Below, one piece after another: positions 1-12,730 of a stretch of 32,291 nt of DNA. This DNA is from Coriobacteriaceae bacterium. GTDB taxonomy: Bacteria > Actinomycetota > Coriobacteriia > Coriobacteriales > Eggerthellaceae. Position numbers and translations under genes: made by a program. The DNA lies in assembly GCA_031256895.1 (NCBI GenBank), contig JAIRPR010000205.1:1-32291 (forward strand), read 5' to 3'. The notes under the pieces were generated by a model that was not told the DNA's origin, ran no database searches, and saw only the letters and a list, made by a program, of their open reading frames with translations. Position 1 is the stretch's first letter. Each line of letters starts with the position of its first letter.

Positions 1-246
1 GATATCCTTATCGACCGCCCTGGTCAAAGCGCACACAACGGCAGAATCGCCCGCCAGTTCGGCTATGCGGCGCACGCTCTCGAAATCACCGGGGCTCGAG
101 ATAGGGAATCCCGCCTCTATCACATCCACCTTGAGGCGGAGAAGCTCCCGTGCCACCACCAGCTTCTCTTCAGTGTTCATGGAGGCGCCTGGCGATTGCT
201 CGCCGTCGCGCAAGGTGGTGTCGAAGATGGCGATCTTTCGGGACAT
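1..246 (-). CDS. leuA: 2-isopropylmalate synthase, N-terminal part (cut by window edge)
   Basis: This is the first 82 codons of LeuA, which condenses acetyl-CoA with 2-oxoisovalerate to give 2-isopropylmalate, the committed step to leucine. It is absent from the ORF track because it runs off the left edge. The reverse complement reads [20 protein letters not shown] and continues with the family signatures [15 protein letters not shown] and [21 protein letters not shown] supplies the substrate- and metal-binding Arg and Asp of the HMGL-like TIM barrel. The ATG at 246 is preceded by GAAAGGAAA, a good ribosome binding site. The gene lies downstream of serA and is the last visible gene of the ilv-ser-leu operon. 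The SSPGDFE block favours LeuA over citramalate or homocitrate synthase, but the C-terminal regulatory domain is outside the window. Confidence 0.93.
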
Positions 247-269: not shown

Positions 270-533
270 TGTTCGCCCGCGCCCCCCCGCAACGCCCGGT
301 GCCCTTACACTTCGGTGTAGAAGGTGCCCGGCGATTGCAGGGGGCGCGAGGGTCGAGCGCGGCGTACACAAGGTACGTGAGCGCCCCCCGCAGCGCCCCT
401 CGCTCTGCCCGGCACCCTTACACTAAAGTAGAAGGTGCCCGGCGGTTGCAGGGGGCGCGAGGGTCGAGCGCGGCGTACACAAGGTACGTGAGCGAGCTTC
501 GCAGCGCCCCCTGTAACGCCCGGCACCTTCTAC
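270..533. repeat. Tandem palindromic repeat units between serA and leuA
   Basis: The gap holds two near-identical 67-nt direct repeats (317-383 and 428-494, one mismatch seen) inside units of about 110 nt, plus a degenerate half unit at about 270-316. The right unit is bounded by a perfect 12-nt inverted repeat, GTAGAAGGTGCC at 428-439 and GGCACCTTCTAC at 522-533. The centre carries CGTAC-N5-GTACG. On the minus strand the serA TAG stop forms the start of the right unit, and the other copies have TAA at the equivalent position. The transcript would fold into long GC-rich hairpins between serA and leuA. A related core lies after hydA at 26.4 kb. It could be a REP/MITE-like element or an RNA processing or stability signal; no tract of U that would mark a classical terminator is visible. 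Confidence 0.85.
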
Positions 534-2107
534 AAGCGGATGTGCCAGAGTTTGCGTAACTCCAGCGCCCCGCGCAGCTTGTCCAGGATCTCTTCGGTCA
601 CATCGCCTTCCACATTCATGAACACAAGGGCGTGCTTCTCTTCGGGCTTCATGCCAACCTGCATGGTGGTGATGTTGATATCGGCAGCCCCCAGGATAGA
701 GCCGATGGTGCCGATCTTGCCGGGGGAATCGAAATACTCGAAGATAAGGGAGTTCGCGGTGGGCACGACCTCCATCTGGTAACCGAGCAGCGATACGATG
801 CGGGGGGTGTGGGCGCTGCCTGCTATCGTGCAGGCGGCTTCTTGGCCATCGGCGCTTATGGCAACCGTCGAGGCGTATTCGGCGGCATCGCTCTTCGACG
901 CGGTGCTGACCTCGATGCCAAAGCGCTTTGCCACGGCTTCTGCGTTGACGGGCGTCACCGCGGTGATGCCGCGGTCGGCAAGCAGGCCGCCCAAAGCCCC
1001 CACGGAAAGGATGGAAAGGTCGGACCCGGCCAAAGCTCCTGCGGCGGTGATCTTCAGGTACTTGGGAAGCTCGCCGCTTACCTGGGCAAGCAGCGCACCC
1101 AACATCTGGCAGGCCGGCACATAGGGGCCGACCACGTCCATGACCTCGGGTGGCACGGGCGCCATGTTCACGGCAGTCGGCACGATGGAGCCGTTGAGGC
1201 CGGCCGCCACGTACTCGGCAATCTGGGTGCCTGCCCTGACCTGCGCCTCTTTGGTGGAGGCGCCCAGGTGCGGGGTCAGGATCACGTTGTCGAACTCGTG
1301 CAGGGGGCTGGTCGTGCAGGGCTCCTTCTCGTACACGTCGATACCGGCTGCGCCGATCTTGCCCGCCGCGACGAAATCGGCAAGGGAAGCCACGTTGTAG
1401 ATGCCCCCGCGCGCGGTGTTCACCAGAACGACGCCATCCTTCATGGCCGCATACTGCTCTGGCCCGAACATGCCTATGGTCTCTTTGGTCTTGGGCAGGT
1501 GAACGGTGATGAAATCGGCCAGGGGGACTATCTCGTCTACGGTGTCATACAGGGTGACGCCCATCTCTTGGGCGCGTGCCGGGCTGCAATAGGGGTCGTA
1601 GCCTATCAGCTTCATACCGAATGCCCGCGCCCTTTCGGCCACCAGCGAGCCGATGCGGCCCAGGCCGAAGATGGCAAGCGTCTTCTCATAGAGCTCCAGC
1701 CCCATGAACTTGGAACGTTCCCACTTGCCTGCGTGCATCGAGTTGTAGGCTTGGGGGGTCTTGCGTGCGCAGGCAAGCATCAGGCACATGGTCTGCTCTG
1801 CTGCCGAGACGATGTTCGAAAAGGGGGCGTTGCACACGATGATGCCCCGCTCGGTGGCCGCCTCGACATCGACATTGTCGATGCCGACGCCGGCGCGGCC
1901 TATCACCTTGAGGGCAACCCCCGCCTCGATGACCTCCCGGGTGGCCTGGGTGGCGCTCCTCACGATGAGGGCATGGTAAGGCACTATGGCCGCCACCAGC
2001 TCTTCGGGGGTCAGATCCAGTTTGACATCGACCTCGAAGCCGTGGTCGCGCAGTATCTGGATGCCTTCCTCTGCCAGTTTTTCCGCTATCAATACCTTGT
2101 CAGCCAT
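530..2107 (-). CDS. serA: D-3-phosphoglycerate dehydrogenase, long form with ACT domain
   Basis: SerA oxidises 3-phosphoglycerate to 3-phosphohydroxypyruvate with NAD, the entry step of serine synthesis. The 525-residue product has the long-form architecture: a substrate domain at both ends of the catalytic core, an NAD-binding Rossmann domain with GLGRIGSLVAERA at about residue 150, the catalytic-region motif LTPHLGAST, an intervening (ASB) domain and a C-terminal ACT domain starting near FEYFDSPGKIGTIGSIL. ACT domains commonly bind serine for feedback inhibition. The ATG at 2107 has GGAGG about 7 nt upstream. It lies in one transcriptional direction with the upstream aminotransferase and downstream leuA. 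The stop codon TAG coincides with the first bases of the palindromic repeat. Identification is secure. Confidence 0.96.
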   Translation of the reverse strand: MADKVLIAEKLAEEGIQILRDHGFEVDVKLDLTPEELVAAIVPYHALIVRSATQATREVIEAGVALKVIGRAGVGIDNVDVEAATERGIIVCNAPFSNIVSAAEQTMCLMLACARKTPQAYNSMHAGKWERSKFMGLELYEKTLAIFGLGRIGSLVAERARAFGMKLIGYDPYCSPARAQEMGVTLYDTVDEIVPLADFITVHLPKTKETIGMFGPEQYAAMKDGVVLVNTARGGIYNVASLADFVAAGKIGAAGIDVYEKEPCTTSPLHEFDNVILTPHLGASTKEAQVRAGTQIAEYVAAGLNGSIVPTAVNMAPVPPEVMDVVGPYVPACQMLGALLAQVSGELPKYLKITAAGALAGSDLSILSVGALGGLLADRGITAVTPVNAEAVAKRFGIEVSTASKSDAAEYASTVAISADGQEAACTIAGSAHTPRIVSLLGYQMEVVPTANSLIFEYFDSPGKIGTIGSILGAADINITTMQVGMKPEEKHALVFMNVEGDVTEEILDKLRGALELRKLWHIRL

Positions 2108-2373: not shown

Positions 2374-3519
2374 TCATCCCATCAAGACGGCTTCGGCCGC
2401 CTTGATGCCCGCGCCCGCCTCGAAGACGTAGCCGAGCTCCTTGAGTGCCATCTCGAGTGCGGCAAGCACCACGATGACGTCGAAATCGCCGACATAGCCC
2501 AGGTGGCCTACCCGGAAGATCCTTCCGGCATAATCGTCCTGGCCTCCGGCTATGGTGACGCCGTATTTGTTCTTGAGCGTGCTGACCAGCTTCTTCCCGT
2601 CGATGCCTTCGGGCACCCACACCGGGGTGACCGCATTGCCACGGCCCTCGGGCGGGGCGAAGAGCTCAAGGCCCAAAGCCACGCAGCCCTGACGGGTGGC
2701 CTCGGCCAGCTTCGCGTGACGGGCTATCACGTTCTCGATGCCCTCTTCGCGGATGAGGCGCAGCGCCTCGGCAAGGCCTATCATGAGCGAGACGGCCGGG
2801 GTGAAGGGCGTGGTGTCGTCCTTGAGGCTCTTGCGGTACTTGCCCCAATCGAAGTAGAACTTGGGCAAGGTCGAACGCTCGTAAGCCTTCCATGCCTTCG
2901 GCGAGACCGTGCAGGCAGCAAGCCCCGGAGGCAGCATGAGGCCTTTCTGGGAGCCGGTCATGACCACATCGAGGCCCCATTCGTCCGTCTTGCATTCGAC
3001 AGCGCCGATGCCGGTGATGGAATCGACGATGAGCACACATTCGGGGTAGGCCCGCACGATGGCACCGACTGCCTCCACATCGTTCAGGACGCCCGACGAG
3101 GTCTCCGATTGGGTCACAATGACGCCACGGGTGTCGGGGGCGGCAGCCAGGGCATCAGCGATGTCTTGGGGATCGACGCATTGCTGCCAGCCGTAGGAAA
3201 GTGTCGTGACCTCAAGCCCATAGGCCTTCGAGAGCGATTCCATGCGCTGGCCGAACTTGCCGTTGTAGCACACTATCACCTTGTCGCCCGGGCAGAAGCA
3301 GTTGACGATGGCCGATTCCATAGCGCCCGTGCCCGAAGAGGCAAACATGAGCACATCGCTCAGCTCGGTCTGGAACACGTACTTGAGCCCTTCGGCGCAC
3401 TCGCGCACGCACGCATTGAAGTCGGGGGTGCGGTGGTGGATCATGGGGCGGGCCTGCGCAAGCAGCACTTCGCTGGGGACCGTGGTCGGCCCTGGAGTCA
3501 TCAGGTACTTCTTCTGCAT
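2374..3519 (-). CDS. Class V PLP aminotransferase (alanine/serine-glyoxylate or phosphoserine type)
   Basis: A 381-residue fold-type I, class V aminotransferase of the serine-pyruvate/alanine-glyoxylate group. Visible features are the N-terminal MTPGPTTVP motif, SSGTGAMES for cofactor phosphate binding near residue 61, the Asp of VDSITGIGAVE, and GSQKGLMLPPG with the PLP-binding Lys at about 192. The family has broad specificity (Ser, Ala, Asp, phosphoserine; glyoxylate or pyruvate as acceptors). Because it sits directly before serA and no serC is present in the window, it may supply the transamination step of serine synthesis; this is inference from context. An alternative role is in glyoxylate/glycine metabolism. 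The ATG at 3519 follows AGAAAGGAAAGCC. A repeat-rich spacer follows its stop codon. Confidence 0.88.
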   Translation of the reverse strand: MQKKYLMTPGPTTVPSEVLLAQARPMIHHRTPDFNACVRECAEGLKYVFQTELSDVLMFASSGTGAMESAIVNCFCPGDKVIVCYNGKFGQRMESLSKAYGLEVTTLSYGWQQCVDPQDIADALAAAPDTRGVIVTQSETSSGVLNDVEAVGAIVRAYPECVLIVDSITGIGAVECKTDEWGLDVVMTGSQKGLMLPPGLAACTVSPKAWKAYERSTLPKFYFDWGKYRKSLKDDTTPFTPAVSLMIGLAEALRLIREEGIENVIARHAKLAEATRQGCVALGLELFAPPEGRGNAVTPVWVPEGIDGKKLVSTLKNKYGVTIAGGQDDYAGRIFRVGHLGYVGDFDVIVVLAALEMALKELGYVFEAGAGIKAAEAVLMG

Positions 3520-3899: not shown

Positions 3900-4910
<1,011 letters not shown>

Positions 4911-5161
4911 CCTTTCCTTGGTTTGTGCCTGTGCGGAGCGGCTTATGCACTGGTAGGCGTTCTTCGCTGCCTTGCACACTGTCCTCGCGTTCCGTTCCTC
5001 ACACTGTCTTCCTCACGTTGTCCTGCACACACTGTCCTCATGTTTCAGTCCTCATGCTTCCTGCCTTCACGTTGCGTTCCTCACACTGTCTTCCTCACGT
5101 TGCGTTCCTCACGTTCCGTTCCTCATGCGTTCCTCACGTTGCGTTCCTCATGCTGTCCTCA
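4911..5161. repeat. ilvN-ilvC spacer: 14-nt degenerate tandem array
   Basis: About 180 nt (roughly 4980-5161) consist of a degenerate array. On the minus strand the unit is close to TGAGGAACGCAACG, 14 nt, with variants such as TGAGGAAGACAGTG and TGAGGACTGAAACA, in about a dozen copies. The first copy contains the ilvN stop codon, and GGAAGCATGAGGAC at the gene end recurs inside the array near 5055. Every unit carries a Shine-Dalgarno-like GAGGA. The remaining 4911-4980 holds the ilvC ribosome binding site. I see no terminator. Confidence 0.85.
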
Positions 5162-5644
5162 TGCTTCCTTGCTGTTGCGCGACATCGCTATCTTGCCGGT
5201 CCGGATTATCTCTTTGATGCCGTAGGCGCGGAAGAGGTCCTCCATGCCTCGCAGCTTGTTCTCGTCCCCTGTCGCCTCGATGGTGAGCGAGCTTCCGCCC
5301 ACATCAACTATCTTCGCGCGGAACACGTTCGCTATCTCGATTATCTCACCCCTTCGGTCAGGGGCTGCGCACACCTTGAACAGCACCAGCTCGCGCTCGA
5401 TCGCGGCATCGTTGGTGAGGTCGCTTATCTTGTGGACCGAGATGAGCTTGTGGAGCTGCTTGGTTATCTGCTCATAGGCCAGCTCATCGGCAGAGACGAT
5501 GGCCGTGACTCGCGACATCGTGGCGTCTTCCGTAGGCCCTACCGTGAGCGACTCTATGTTGAAGCCGCGCCGCGATATCAGGCCGGTCACCCGGCTCAGC
5601 ACGCCGGGCTTGTTCTCAACAAGGACCGAAAGCACATGCCTCAT
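5159..5644 (-). CDS. ilvN: Acetolactate synthase, regulatory (small) subunit
   Basis: This 161-residue protein is the regulatory subunit of acetohydroxyacid synthase, which raises activity of the large subunit and confers valine feedback inhibition. It opens with a typical ACT domain (MRHVLSVLVENKPGVLSRVTG, followed by RRGFNIESLTVGPTED) and ends with the ALS_ss_C-type domain (FRAKIVDVG, LTIEATGDENKL, ELAR-like helix, GIKEIIRTGKIAM). Length is normal for the IlvH/IlvN family. The ATG at 5644 has a strong AAAGGAGG about 6 nt upstream. It follows ilvB by 67 nt on the same strand. Its stop TGA is also the first bases of the tandem array in the spacer to ilvC. Confidence 0.95.
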   Translation of the reverse strand: MRHVLSVLVENKPGVLSRVTGLISRRGFNIESLTVGPTEDATMSRVTAIVSADELAYEQITKQLHKLISVHKISDLTNDAAIERELVLFKVCAAPDRRGEIIEIANVFRAKIVDVGGSSLTIEATGDENKLRGMEDLFRAYGIKEIIRTGKIAMSRNSKEA

Positions 5645-5711: not shown

Positions 5712-7639
<1,928 letters not shown>

Positions 7640-7643
<4 letters not shown>

Positions 7644-9346
7644 AACAGGATCGCCCCCTTGTCTGCAGAACTGACCTGCCGGGCATAGCGCGCCAGCACC
7701 CCTTGTGTGAAGCGGGGCTTTGGCGGGTGCCAGGCCTGCGCCCTTTGCGCCAGATCTTCTTCACTGACATCCAGACTCAACACGCCACCCTCGATGTCAA
7801 CCGTGATGTCATCGCCTTCCCTGACCAGGGCTAGAGGGCCGCCGACAGCAGCTTCGGGACTGACGTGCCCCACCGCAGGCCCTTTGGTGGCGCCCGAGAA
7901 GCGCCCGTCGGTGACCAAGGCCACCGAAGAGGAAAGCCCCCTGCCCACGATGGCCGAGGTGGGCGCAAGCATCTCGCGCATGCCGGGGCCGCCCCGCGGG
8001 CCTTCGTAGCGGATGACCACCACGTCGCCCGGCACGATGCGGCCTTCTCCGATAGCCGCACAGGCTGCTTCCTCGCTGTCGAACACCCGGGCAGGACCTG
8101 TGTGGCAAAGCATGGCGCCCGCAACGGCACCCTTCTTCACCACAGCGCCATCGGGGGCAAGGTTGCCCTTCAGCACCTTCAGGGCTCCTTGGGGCGAAAA
8201 GGGGTCGTCATGGCGGCGGCAGACCCGCGGATCGGCAGCAGGCCCGCTGTCGGGAAGCGACGAAACGTCAGGTGCAACAACTGTCGCCAGGTAGTCGGCA
8301 AGCGTTCCCACGCAGGTCTGGGCGTGCAGGTCGAGCAGGCCGAGCGCGGCCAATTCGCGCATCACCACCGGCACGCCCCCCGCCTCATGCAAGGCCAGAA
8401 GCGGAAGCGGGCCAGAAGGCTGGATCTTGACCAGATGAGGGGTCGCCTGGCTGACAGCCTCCCAATCGTCCAAGGTGATAGGATGCCCTGCCTCGGCGGC
8501 TATGGCGGTCAGGTGGAGAACCGTGTTCGTGGAGCCGCCAAAGGCCATGTCGCATTCCATGGCGTTATGGATGGCAGCAGGGCTTATGATGTCTTTCAGA
8601 CAGACGTCCTGCGCCAGAAGGGCCATCACCTTCTTCCCTGCCTGCTTTGCCAGGCGGATGCGCTGCGCATAGACAGCCGGTATGGTGCCGTTGCCCGGAA
8701 GCGCCACGCCCAAGGCCTCACAAAGGCAGTTCATCGAGTTCGCCGTGAACATGCCCGAGCAGCTTCCGCAGGTGGGGCATGCGGTCTCTTCGTAATAGCG
8801 CAGCTTGGCTTCATCCATAGTGCCTGCCGCGACCGCCGCCGCGCCATCGAAGAGGGTGTTGAGGTCGGTCGTTTCCGCCGTATCGCCGAAGCCCTTGCCT
8901 GGCAGCATGGGCCCGCCCGAACAGAAGACGGTGGGGATGTTCACCCGCAAGGCGCCCATCAGCATGCCCGGTACCACCTTGTCGCAGTTGGGTATGCATA
9001 CCATCGCGTCGAAACGGTGTGCGGCAACAGCGCATTCGAGCGAATCGGCGATCGCTTCGCGGGATGCCAGGGAATAATGCATCCCTTCGTGGTTCATGGC
9101 TATCCCGTCGCAGATGCCGATGGTGGAAAGCTCGAAGGGGATGCCGCCTGCCTGGTAGATGCCTGCCTTGACCGCCTCGGCTATGGCACCCAAGCCCAAG
9201 TGCCCGGGTATGATGTCGCTGCGGGAGCCCACCACCGCGACAAAGGGGCGGGCCATCTCGTCATCGGTAATGCCGCAGGCTTTGAGCAGGCTTCGGTGGG
9301 GGGCACGTGCAATGCCTTGCTTTATTGCTTCGCTTCTCATTCCCAT
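7640..9346 (-). CDS. ilvD: Dihydroxy-acid dehydratase
   Basis: IlvD dehydrates 2,3-dihydroxy acids to the 2-oxo acids that precede valine and isoleucine, using an iron-sulfur cluster. The 568-residue product has normal length for the IlvD/Edd family. It shows the N-terminal [12 protein letters not shown], the cluster cysteines in [13 protein letters not shown] and [15 protein letters not shown], the middle block [14 protein letters not shown], and the C-terminal [25 protein letters not shown]. It is the first structural gene after the T-box leader. The ATG at 9346 is preceded by AAGGAAGGAAAG; a second ATG two codons in (9340) is possible. It overlaps ilvB by 4 nt (ATGA). Confidence 0.96.
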
Positions 9347-9414: not shown

Positions 9415-9500
9415 CAATAAAAAAATCCCGACACGCAAAGCCGCGCCAGGACTACCCGAAACCTCAGGCACACGCACCTTCCTGGCAGGCCAGGGATTGT
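9415..9500 (-). terminator. Intrinsic terminator of the T-box leader
   Basis: On the minus strand the leader ends with GTGTCGGGATTTTTTTATTG. The GGGATT can pair with AATCCC just after the T-box motif, enclosing a branched GC-rich structure that includes CCTGGCC-TGCCAGG and CCTGAGGTTTCGGG. The AATCCC segment would be shared with the antiterminator, as expected for transcriptional attenuation. The ilvD ribosome binding site lies about 60 nt further on. Confidence 0.78.
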
Positions 9501-9757
9501 ACCCCCCTTGCTCCCTTGCGAGCAAGAGAAAGGCATGACATGCGCCTTCGCAAAAGACTGATAACGGTAGCCGCCGGTTCGGCTTACTGGCTCCCCTTGG
9601 TCTTGGAGTTCGTCCAAGTACCGCAGGAAACGTTCACGCCAAACTGCTCGGAGGTGGCTTTCAGACCGTCCACCATCGGCTCGCAGCGACCGCCGACTCT
9701 CTGAAGATGGATGCGCCCTTACTTTCCTCGTCAAGGCATTTAGGACTATTGGTTTGT
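9415..9757 (-). ncRNA. T-box leader (tRNA-sensing riboswitch) of the ilv-ser-leu operon
   Basis: The minus-strand leader upstream of ilvD has the ordered landmarks of a T-box. These are GAGGAAAGTA near its start, then CAGAGAGTCGGCGG and GCTGCGAGCCGA (Stem I), GGTCTGAAAGCCACC, then CCAGTAAGCCGAACCGGCGG with ACCGTTATCAG (Stem II region), a 7-bp Stem III hairpin CTTGCTC/GAGCAAG, the T-box-like AAGGGGGGTAC, and finally an intrinsic terminator. T-boxes test charging of a cognate tRNA and permit readthrough when it is uncharged. Candidate specifier positions are in GTGAACGTTTCC and GGACGAACTCC. Val (GTT) and Leu (CTC) codons can be read there, but I cannot fix the codon by eye. The usual TGGN bulge reads GGGT here. 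Confidence 0.82.
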
Positions 9758-9763
9758 AAAGGC

Positions 9764-9793
9764 AGTATACTCCCCCCTGCACAGAGGGCGTCC
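9764..9793 (-). promoter_or_regulatory. Promoter for the T-box leader and ilv operon
   Basis: A TATACT -10 hexamer lies at 9764-9769 on the minus strand, directly before the T-box leader. The -35 region at 17 nt spacing (GACGCC or GGACGC) is poor, so this is a -10-driven assignment. The predicted start near 9757 gives a leader of about 410 nt to ilvD. Confidence 0.6.
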
Positions 9794-10680: not shown

Positions 10681-12730
10681 GGGACGCCTCCTTGCGGGGT
10701 TCCTGGGTCATCGGCTCCACCTGGTAACGGGGGCACAGGCCGCAGGCCTCACAACTACCGAAAGAGCAATCCGGCGTGGTCTGCCCCAGGGCTGCCCGCT
10801 GCCGCTCGCGCCGCAAAAAGCCTGTCTCCACGCCGCAGTCTATGTGGCTCCAGGGTGGAATGAAGGCCGTGTCCCAGCTGCGCGAGGCTGCCTCAGCCGG
10901 TGTGAAGCCCAGCGTGACGGCAGCATCTTCCCAGGTTTGCGCATTGAAGCATTCCGACCAGGCGTCGAAACGGGCACCGCGCCTCCAAGCCCCCTCTATC
11001 CAGGCGGCACATTCGCGTCCGCCCCTGCTCAAGGCCGCCTCTATAAGGCTTGTGGCTGGATCGTGCCAGTTCACCGTGATGGCACGGTACTTCACCGAGG
11101 ACCGCAGCAGGTTCACACGCCGCATGGCCTCGTCAGGCGGTATCTGCCCGTCCCACTGGAAGGGGGTGTGCGGCTTGGGCACGAAAAGGGCGCAGGACAC
11201 GCTCATCTTGATGCTGCCGCGCATTCCGGGCGGCACCGCTTCACGCGCCCGGTCATATGCCCGTTGGGCCAAGCTTGCGATGCCCTTGACGTCATCGTCG
11301 GTCTCGGTGGGAAGCCCCAGCATGAAATAGAGCTTGCAATGGCGCCAACCGGCGGCAAAGGCTGCATCGATGGCATTGAACAGGTCGTCCTCGGTCACGT
11401 TCTTATTGATGACGTCGCGCAGGCGCTGGGTCCCCGCTTCGGGCGCAAAGGTCAGGCCCCCCTTCTTGCGGCCTGCCACCAGTCCGGCCATGCTGACCCC
11501 GAAGGCATCGAGGCGCTGCGAGGGGATGGATATGCGGATGCCCTTTCCCTCACACGCCTGGTTCAGACGGGTCAGGATAGCGGCTATCTGGGAATGGTCG
11601 GTGGTCGAAAGCGAGGTCAGGCTGACCTCGTCGTAGCCGGTGGCCTCAAGGCCTTCCAACACCGCAGACACGATCTGTTCAGCCGGCCGCTCCCGTACAG
11701 GGCGGTATATCATGCCAGCCTGGCAGAAGCGGCAGCCCCGGGTGCAGCCGCGCAGCACCTCGACATTCAGGCGGTCATGGACTGTTTCAATGAAGGGCAC
11801 CACACAGGGCTCCCAGGCGGGGCTTTGGGAGAATCCCGTGAAGATGCGCCGACGAAAGACCGGGACGGTGTCCCGGCTCAGGGTGTCCCGGCTCAGGGTG
11901 TCCTGGCGCGGGGCTTCCTGGCACGGGGCGTCCTGGCGCGGGGCTTCCCGGCTCAGGGCATCCTGGCGCGGAGCGGGCACAAGCCAAGTGCCGCGTGCCT
12001 GGGCCTCTTCTTGTCCCAAGCCGACATAGAGCGAGGGCACGTAGGTCCCCGGTACCAGCGCAAGCCTGCGCAAGGTATCAGCACGGCCCATGCCCGCCTG
12101 CTTGCAGCGGCGATGCTCGTGCAAGAGCTCAGGCACGGATTCCTCGCCTTCCCCCAAGGAAAAAGCATCAAAGAACAGATGGAAGGGCTCAGGGTTGTAG
12201 GCGACCGGCCCGCCCCCGATGACCAGGGGGTGGCTATCGTCTCGGTCGGCGGCATGGAGCGGGATGCCTGCCAGGTCAAGCACCTCTAGAATGTTGCTTG
12301 CCACCAGTTCGTGCGACAGGGTGATGCCCAATGCGTCGAACTGCGCCAATGGTGCGCAGCCTTCGAGCGAGAAAAGGGGAAGCCCTTCTTGGCGCATCAG
12401 GTCGCAGAAGTCAGGTGCGGGAAGGAAGGCACGTTCGGCCGACATGCCCTCTTGGGCGTTGACCGCTTTGCACAGTATCCGGAGCGCCTGGTTCGGCTGG
12501 CCGAGCTCGTAGGTGTCCGGATAAACCATGCAGAACCGGTAGACCCCTGGCACGGGGGCCGACATGCCCGAAGCCGTTATCGAGGCCCCAAGACCAAGGT
12601 CAGGCGTTGCAGGTTCCCGATAGGAAGTCCCCGGCACCGGGGCGGTAGCCCCCCATTCGTGATTGATATAGCGCGCAGGCCTTTCGGCCTGCGCGAGAAG
12701 CCGGGCAAGGCGCGGCCAGAGGTCGGTCAT
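10673..12730 (-). CDS. B12-binding-type radical SAM protein, TIGR03960 family
   Basis: A protein of about 685 residues of the TIGR03960 family. The N-terminal B12-binding-like region runs from VYRFCMVYPDTYELGQPNQALRIL to LVIGGGPVAYNPEPF. The radical SAM core starts with LNVEVLRGCTRGCRFCQAG, whose CxxxCxxC binds the [4Fe-4S] cluster that cleaves SAM. The C-terminus has the typical CSFGSCEACGLCPRY cysteine cluster. The track start at 12748 is GTG. The ATG at 12730 is better because GAAGGGAAGG lies 6 nt upstream. Before the core there is an in-frame expansion of five-residue units (RQDAL, SREAP, RQDAP and so on). The substrate is unknown. It follows the DUF697 gene and is coupled to the DUF2344 gene. 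Confidence 0.88.
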   Translation of the reverse strand: MTDLWPRLARLLAQAERPARYINHEWGATAPVPGTSYREPATPDLGLGASITASGMSAPVPGVYRFCMVYPDTYELGQPNQALRILCKAVNAQEGMSAERAFLPAPDFCDLMRQEGLPLFSLEGCAPLAQFDALGITLSHELVASNILEVLDLAGIPLHAADRDDSHPLVIGGGPVAYNPEPFHLFFDAFSLGEGEESVPELLHEHRRCKQAGMGRADTLRRLALVPGTYVPSLYVGLGQEEAQARGTWLVPAPRQDALSREAPRQDAPCQEAPRQDTLSRDTLSRDTVPVFRRRIFTGFSQSPAWEPCVVPFIETVHDRLNVEVLRGCTRGCRFCQAGMIYRPVRERPAEQIVSAVLEGLEATGYDEVSLTSLSTTDHSQIAAILTRLNQACEGKGIRISIPSQRLDAFGVSMAGLVAGRKKGGLTFAPEAGTQRLRDVINKNVTEDDLFNAIDAAFAAGWRHCKLYFMLGLPTETDDDVKGIASLAQRAYDRAREAVPPGMRGSIKMSVSCALFVPKPHTPFQWDGQIPPDEAMRRVNLLRSSVKYRAITVNWHDPATSLIEAALSRGGRECAAWIEGAWRRGARFDAWSECFNAQTWEDAAVTLGFTPAEAASRSWDTAFIPPWSHIDCGVETGFLRRERQRAALGQTTPDCSFGSCEACGLCPRYQVEPMTQEPRKEASHE
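11862..11976 (-). repeat. In-frame 15-nt repeats in the radical SAM gene
   Basis: About seven 15-nt units (plus-strand forms GGTGTCCCGGCTCAG and GGCTTCCTGGCGCGG) encode RQDAL/SREAP-type pentapeptides between the N-terminal domain and the radical SAM core. The frame is kept, and the insert lies in what should be an interdomain linker. Confidence 0.85.

Follow-up and report, generated by a model that had tools for sequence, protein, structure and literature searches.

A T-box-type leader with an alanine codon in specifier position precedes ilvD in Eggerthellaceae

Introduction

The window studied here (the whole stretch of DNA that was analysed, 32,291 nucleotides) raises the question of which tRNA is read by the leader RNA in front of a set of branched-chain amino acid genes, and how that tRNA could act on the terminator. 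Wels et al., who surveyed T-boxes genome-wide, reported that the specifier codon lined up in nearly every orthologous group and agreed with gene function wherever this was verified (PMC2494555), and because of this rule an alanine codon in front of ilv genes, as described below, is unexpected. An earlier note on this DNA had proposed a T-box that places a joint branched-chain, serine and leucine operon under a branched-chain tRNA sensor.

Results

A T-box-type leader upstream of ilvD

The proposed T-box was confirmed by a significant match to the Rfam covariance model RF00230 at 9743-9489 on the minus strand (73.9 bits, E 5.1e-16), together with structural landmarks, a terminator and the recurrence of the leader in relatives, which here comprise Eggerthellaceae and other Coriobacteriia. 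A default Rfam scan of the window is nonetheless empty, because 73.9 bits is below the curated RF00230 gathering score of 93. This score is strict for the family studied: T-boxes in 7 of 140 family genomes pass it, while 129 of the 140 have a match with E ≤ 0.001, and 17 of 20 chosen relatives gave E-values from 1e-14 to 1e-4. The window leader is almost certainly a T-box-type RNA, and its main parts are as follows:

9764..9769, minus strand: TATACT, probable -10 element of the promoter for the leader, read from the sequence
9419..9757, minus strand: whole T-box-type leader RNA, running from its predicted start through the U tract
9646..9741, minus strand: Stem I, with K-turn, lower helix GAGG/CCUC, S-turn AGUA/GAA, AGAGAG bulge and distal loop (Rfam alignment)
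9577..9644, minus strand: Stem II with S-turn (GUGAACG ... CAGUAAG; alignment of leaders)
9556..9577, minus strand: Stem IIA/B with F-box CCGUUA, its loop in pseudoknot-type pairing with AGUC (alignment of leaders)

The leader is placed between the TATACT box and ilvD, and many of the relatives inspected have such a box with similar spacing upstream of Stem I; a strict -35/-10 scan for a leader promoter found none. The K-turn, AGUA/GAA S-turn, AG bulge and distal loop of Stem I recur in relatives, and the lower helices of these read GAGG/CCUC, AAGG/CCUU, GGGG/CCCC, AGGG/CCCU, GGGG/UCCC or UUGG/CCAA, which are base changes within a helix and no independent test of it, because the helix finder demands pairing.

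This long Stem I, along with Stem II, Stem IIA/B with its F-box, the terminator and the position upstream of ilv genes, resembles class I (transcriptional) T-boxes of the RF00230 type, such as the ilv-leu leaders of Firmicutes, and the window leader is predicted to be a long-Stem-I T-box that acts by transcription attenuation. It shares an actinobacterial host with the class II translational T-boxes of Actinobacteria (ileS). However, that class is defined by a short Stem I without distal domain and by Shine-Dalgarno sequestering, whereas the window has a long Stem I with distal domain and an intrinsic terminator, and terminator control is the rule in its family. The only other RF00230 match in the source genome (two in total) is a canonical GGUGGCACC T-box on contig C65, with a UGG (Trp) specifier read by eye on the minus strand.

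The gene cluster behind the leader

The genes that follow the leader are:

7640..9346, minus strand: ilvD, dihydroxy-acid dehydratase
5712..7643, minus strand: ilvB, acetolactate synthase large subunit
5159..5644, minus strand: ilvN, acetolactate synthase small subunit
3900..4895, minus strand: ilvC, ketol-acid reductoisomerase, split by an in-frame TAG at 4644-4646
2374..3519, minus strand: class V aminotransferase of the serine/alanine-glyoxylate (AGXT) group
530..2107, minus strand: serA, phosphoglycerate dehydrogenase
1..246, minus strand: leuA, 2-isopropylmalate synthase, first 82 codons only (window edge)

The joint ilvDBNC, aminotransferase, serA and leuA content given in the earlier note was recovered, but with an interrupted ilvC and with only the 82 codons of leuA at the window edge. 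The shared ilv, serine and leucine cluster also held up in relatives, where the linkage is conserved: most relatives that have ilvD carry a leader of this kind immediately upstream of it, serA comes after ilvDBNC in Gordonibacter, Adlercreutzia, Raoultibacter, Senegalimassilia, Rubneribacter and others, and leuA follows serA in several of them.

Gaps of 380, 266 and approximately 280 bp occur along the ilv-aminotransferase-serA-leuA stretch of the window, the last placing leuA beyond 111-bp repeats downstream of serA. Between ilvD and serA, minus-strand terminator-like matches were located at 6259-6242 (in ilvB) and 2184-2168 (before serA), both weak and at chance level for the scan. It is plausible that a putative control by the leader reaches serA and leuA. 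Tandem repeats with differing units fill the ilvN-ilvC (4982-5169), aminotransferase-serA (2203-2359) and serA-leuA (276-527) gaps, and repeats are also present within ilvB (7466-7551) and within a radical SAM gene (11867-11971).

The class V aminotransferase (2374-3519) occupies the position that a true serC has before serA in the Raoultibacter cluster. Its closest relatives are serine/alanine-glyoxylate aminotransferases, and no match above 35% identity was found in the 139 other family genomes. SerC was not found in the source genome, a weak empty answer in a draft that is 77% complete. The aminotransferase is a possible SerC replacement, and a SerC-like or serine-pyruvate role may be suggested for it.

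The specifier register holds an alanine codon

The specifier, previously left unsettled by eye, can now be placed by a register in which the codon stands one base before the 4-bp helix that precedes GAGC/GAGG:

9658-9656, minus strand: specifier codon GCC (alanine), from the codon + 1 nt + 4-bp helix register

When applied to other leaders of the same bacteria, this register reads the pheS leaders as UUC and almost every parsed trp leader as UGG (a trp-type leader, L026, reads UAG), and the Rfam model aligns GCC under its specifier columns both for the window and for independent relatives. GCC is found in 46 of 64 distinct leaders and forms the majority in 24 of 32 genus groups. Among these 46 leaders, the preceding base is A in 17, C in 15 and U in 14, and the following base is A in 24, C in 19 and G in three; since the neighbours vary, it is the triplet itself and not its surroundings that is kept. 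The idea that GCC pairs with a GGC at another place in the leader was rejected, as inspection by eye showed no matching changes in leaders with other triplets. Five leaders were unparsed in the tally; among them, reading by eye gives GCC for L048 and L206 and GGC for L210. The triplet AAU of L207 is a doubtful reading, and L061, called UUC by the codon script, reads GUU by eye with a 6-bp helix (GGGUGG/CCAUCC).

The codon therefore does not match the amino acids made by the regulated genes, and the branched-chain tRNA sensor proposed earlier was not upheld. A T-box for Leu, Val or Ile would suit genes that make Val, Ile and Leu, and about four leaders do have branched-chain codons (GUC in L060 and L203, GUU in L061 and CUC in L051), but the window and most relatives carry GCC, which is no branched-chain codon, and we regard this explanation as improbable. 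A Leu codon, CUC, inside CCUCCGAGC was rejected as specifier: it pairs with GAGG as the lower helix, and some relatives have lost it (CCCC in L072, UCCC in L051).

Unlike the pheS and trp leaders, the ilv leaders of relatives also have GGC, GUC, GUU, CUC, AAG, CAA, CAC, AAC, AGC and UAC in specifier position. The source genome encodes a tRNA-Ala(GGC) with discriminator A, which fits the UGGU found in the terminators of relatives (see below), and we lean towards an alanine reading of the ilv leaders in the family.

A proposed tRNA-end site inside the terminator

The 3' part of the leader contains three further features:

9419..9453, minus strand: intrinsic terminator AGUCCUGGCGCGG..CGUGUCGGGAUUUUUUU (folding and terminator scan)
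9445..9448, minus strand: UGGC in the terminator 5' arm, where relatives have UGGU/CGGU (leader alignment)
9453..9516, minus strand: 64-nt insertion present only in the source genome, which holds AGGGGGGUAC (leader alignment)

The terminator hairpin (9453-9424, followed by the U tract) folds at -18.3 kcal/mol with a z-score of -4.75. A canonical AGGGUGGNACC antiterminator with a UGGN bulge was found in none of the 28 aligned Eggerthellaceae leaders, and the Rfam model skips the antiterminator section in the relatives shown. The antiterminator that Rfam assigns to the window (AGGGGGGUAC) was rejected as part of the private insertion. Class I T-boxes differ from the window leader in both respects, as the latter lacks this antiterminator and has UGGN inside the terminator arm, and class I ilv-leu T-boxes differ further in having a branched-chain rather than an alanine codon.

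The terminator 5' arm of relatives reads GUCC[U/C]GGUGCA, and [U/C]GGU is thus located within this arm in most of them. GGUGC is unchanged in all 27 aligned relatives, while the positions opposite UGGU differ among them; this invariance is not a family-wide figure, because the 27 leaders were picked for that terminator type. Across the wider leader set, a sizeable minority of relatives have UGGU altered (UGGG in g28, g33 and g46) or missing (g8, g4, g18 and others). An extended pairing of UGGUGC with the GCACCA end of tRNA-Leu was set aside; the GC also belongs to the upper terminator helix and is conserved on both arms. Nearly all terminator-pattern matches in the 140 genomes lie before ilvD, or before ilvB in genus g45, and none lies before a clearly different gene. 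The g45 leaders (L211, L212 and L213) have the same terminator element, a shortened Stem I without the AG-bulge domain, and the triplets AGC or AAC.

Judged by sequence, the leaders combine T-box-type Stem I, Stem II and Stem IIA/B with a conserved GCC, a terminator, the absence of a canonical antiterminator and excess conservation of the GGU core. The best reading of this combination, to which we give an even chance, is a T-box that answers to uncharged tRNA-Ala(GGC) through non-canonical sensing embedded in the terminator. GCC would bind the anticodon of this tRNA and, in most relatives, its ACCA 3' end would pair with UGGU in the terminator 5' arm and keep the hairpin open, presumably by direct occlusion. 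As the tRNA end would pair within the terminator arm itself, we propose that a separate canonical antiterminator is unneeded. A shortage of alanine would then raise expression of ilvDBNC, and possibly of the serine gene pair and leuA. A physiological logic may lie in the pyruvate that alanine and the branched-chain amino acids share.

In the window, UGGC would not be expected to pair with A73 of tRNA-Ala. For the source genome alone this opens a serine reading, in which AGC in the -1 register is the codon and UGGC pairs with G73 of tRNA-Ser(GCU), in keeping with serA. UGGC is compatible with the Ser discriminator, as tRNA-Ser(GCU) has CGCCA at its end, and -1 and +1 frames were also considered in the TBDB paper (PMC7778990). 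However, relatives with an identical AAGCCA loop have UGGU (L050 and L063), and the -1 triplet varies between AGC, CGC and UGC across GCC leaders, so we consider this very unlikely; as a general serine reading, the -1 frame was rejected on account of this A/C/U variation.

State of the leader in the source genome

Given UGGC and the insertion, the switch may be altered or weakened in the source genome, where the leader may even be decaying. Loss of leader function in a lineage that is giving up branched-chain synthesis would account for these two private features, for the in-frame TAG in ilvC, for the very long IlvD branch (0.7 changes per column, compared with a median of 0.064) and for the failure to find ilvD in the other two genomes of the genus. 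Against this, ilvD, ilvB, ilvN and serA are intact and the leader terminator is strong, and we consider such decay highly improbable. The ilvC frame is intact in relatives such as L067 and L070, and the TAG reflects either a pseudogene or a draft-assembly error, the latter because the genome is an incomplete draft. The family-level conclusions are independent of the state of this particular leader.

Leaders in other Coriobacteriia

In Atopobiaceae, Coriobacteriaceae and Slackia, the ilvD leaders retain Stem I, Stem II and the F-box and have no terminator, no UGGN and no conserved triplet. Instead, CCUCGCAUUUCUC has two alternative pairing partners, an upstream GAGG and the ribosome-binding GAGAAAGCGAGG, an arrangement that resembles the translational control of class II T-boxes. 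T-box-like leaders with this Shine-Dalgarno switch were identified upstream of ilvD in L088, L090-L098, L100, L102-L113 and L115. A Collinsella leader matches RF00230 weakly (E 5e-4), and the Olsenella and Slackia loci tested gave no match to this model. L084 has a leader of the Coriobacteriaceae type before an ilvD that groups with Eggerthellaceae, perhaps through leader exchange. In Olsenella uli, a sub-threshold 6S RNA match (L091 6885-7061; 37.1 bits, E 5e-4) adjoins a tRNA gene about 2.8 kb upstream of ilvD.

These leaders bear on the main rival to the tRNA-Ala reading, a T-box-derived leader of relaxed or drifting specificity that keeps the elbow and Stem II contacts to tRNA while its codon is weakly constrained. 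Such a leader would answer to a broader pool of uncharged tRNAs, or to different tRNAs in different genera. It would explain the non-GCC triplets in 18 of 64 leaders, the changes inside single genus groups (GCC, GUC and UAC in g8; GCC and GUC in g24), the shortened Stem I of g45, and the unconserved triplets and missing UGGN of Atopobiaceae, Coriobacteriaceae and Slackia. Weak constraint sits poorly with an exact GCC between variable neighbours in the remaining leaders, including genera whose IlvD proteins are only ~64% identical, and we consider relaxed specificity rather unlikely.

Discussion

The proposed tRNA-Ala reading has a counterpart in the alanine-specific alaS T-boxes (tRNA-Ala studies in Clostridium acetobutylicum, PMC4695836), and like them the window leader is predicted to read tRNA-Ala; those T-boxes control alaS, whereas this leader precedes ilvD. 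Our literature search found no alanine T-box upstream of ilv genes.

A broader interpretation, which we offer tentatively and only as a whole, is that the ilv leader of Coriobacteriia represents a T-box lineage in which amino acid identity has become decoupled from the regulated genes, and that the RNA may sense something besides whether one cognate tRNA is charged. Under this interpretation, GCC would be the usual codon and other genera would use triplets for Val, Leu, Gly, Lys, Gln or His, a site for the tRNA end within the terminator would have taken the place of the canonical antiterminator, and both tRNA contact sites would be missing from Atopobiaceae, Coriobacteriaceae and Slackia, where the scaffold and a Shine-Dalgarno switch persist.

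Both oddities, the alanine codon and the missing or rebuilt tRNA-end-sensing part, are conserved across much of this family of gut bacteria. If the tRNA-Ala reading is true, an ilv leader that carries an alanine codon and lacks the canonical antiterminator throughout a family would break the rule of Wels et al., would provide a natural test of how much of the T-box tRNA sensing requires, and would be a caution against naming T-box targets solely by their gene context. It would also offer a testable link between alanine status and branched-chain, perhaps also serine, synthesis in common gut bacteria.
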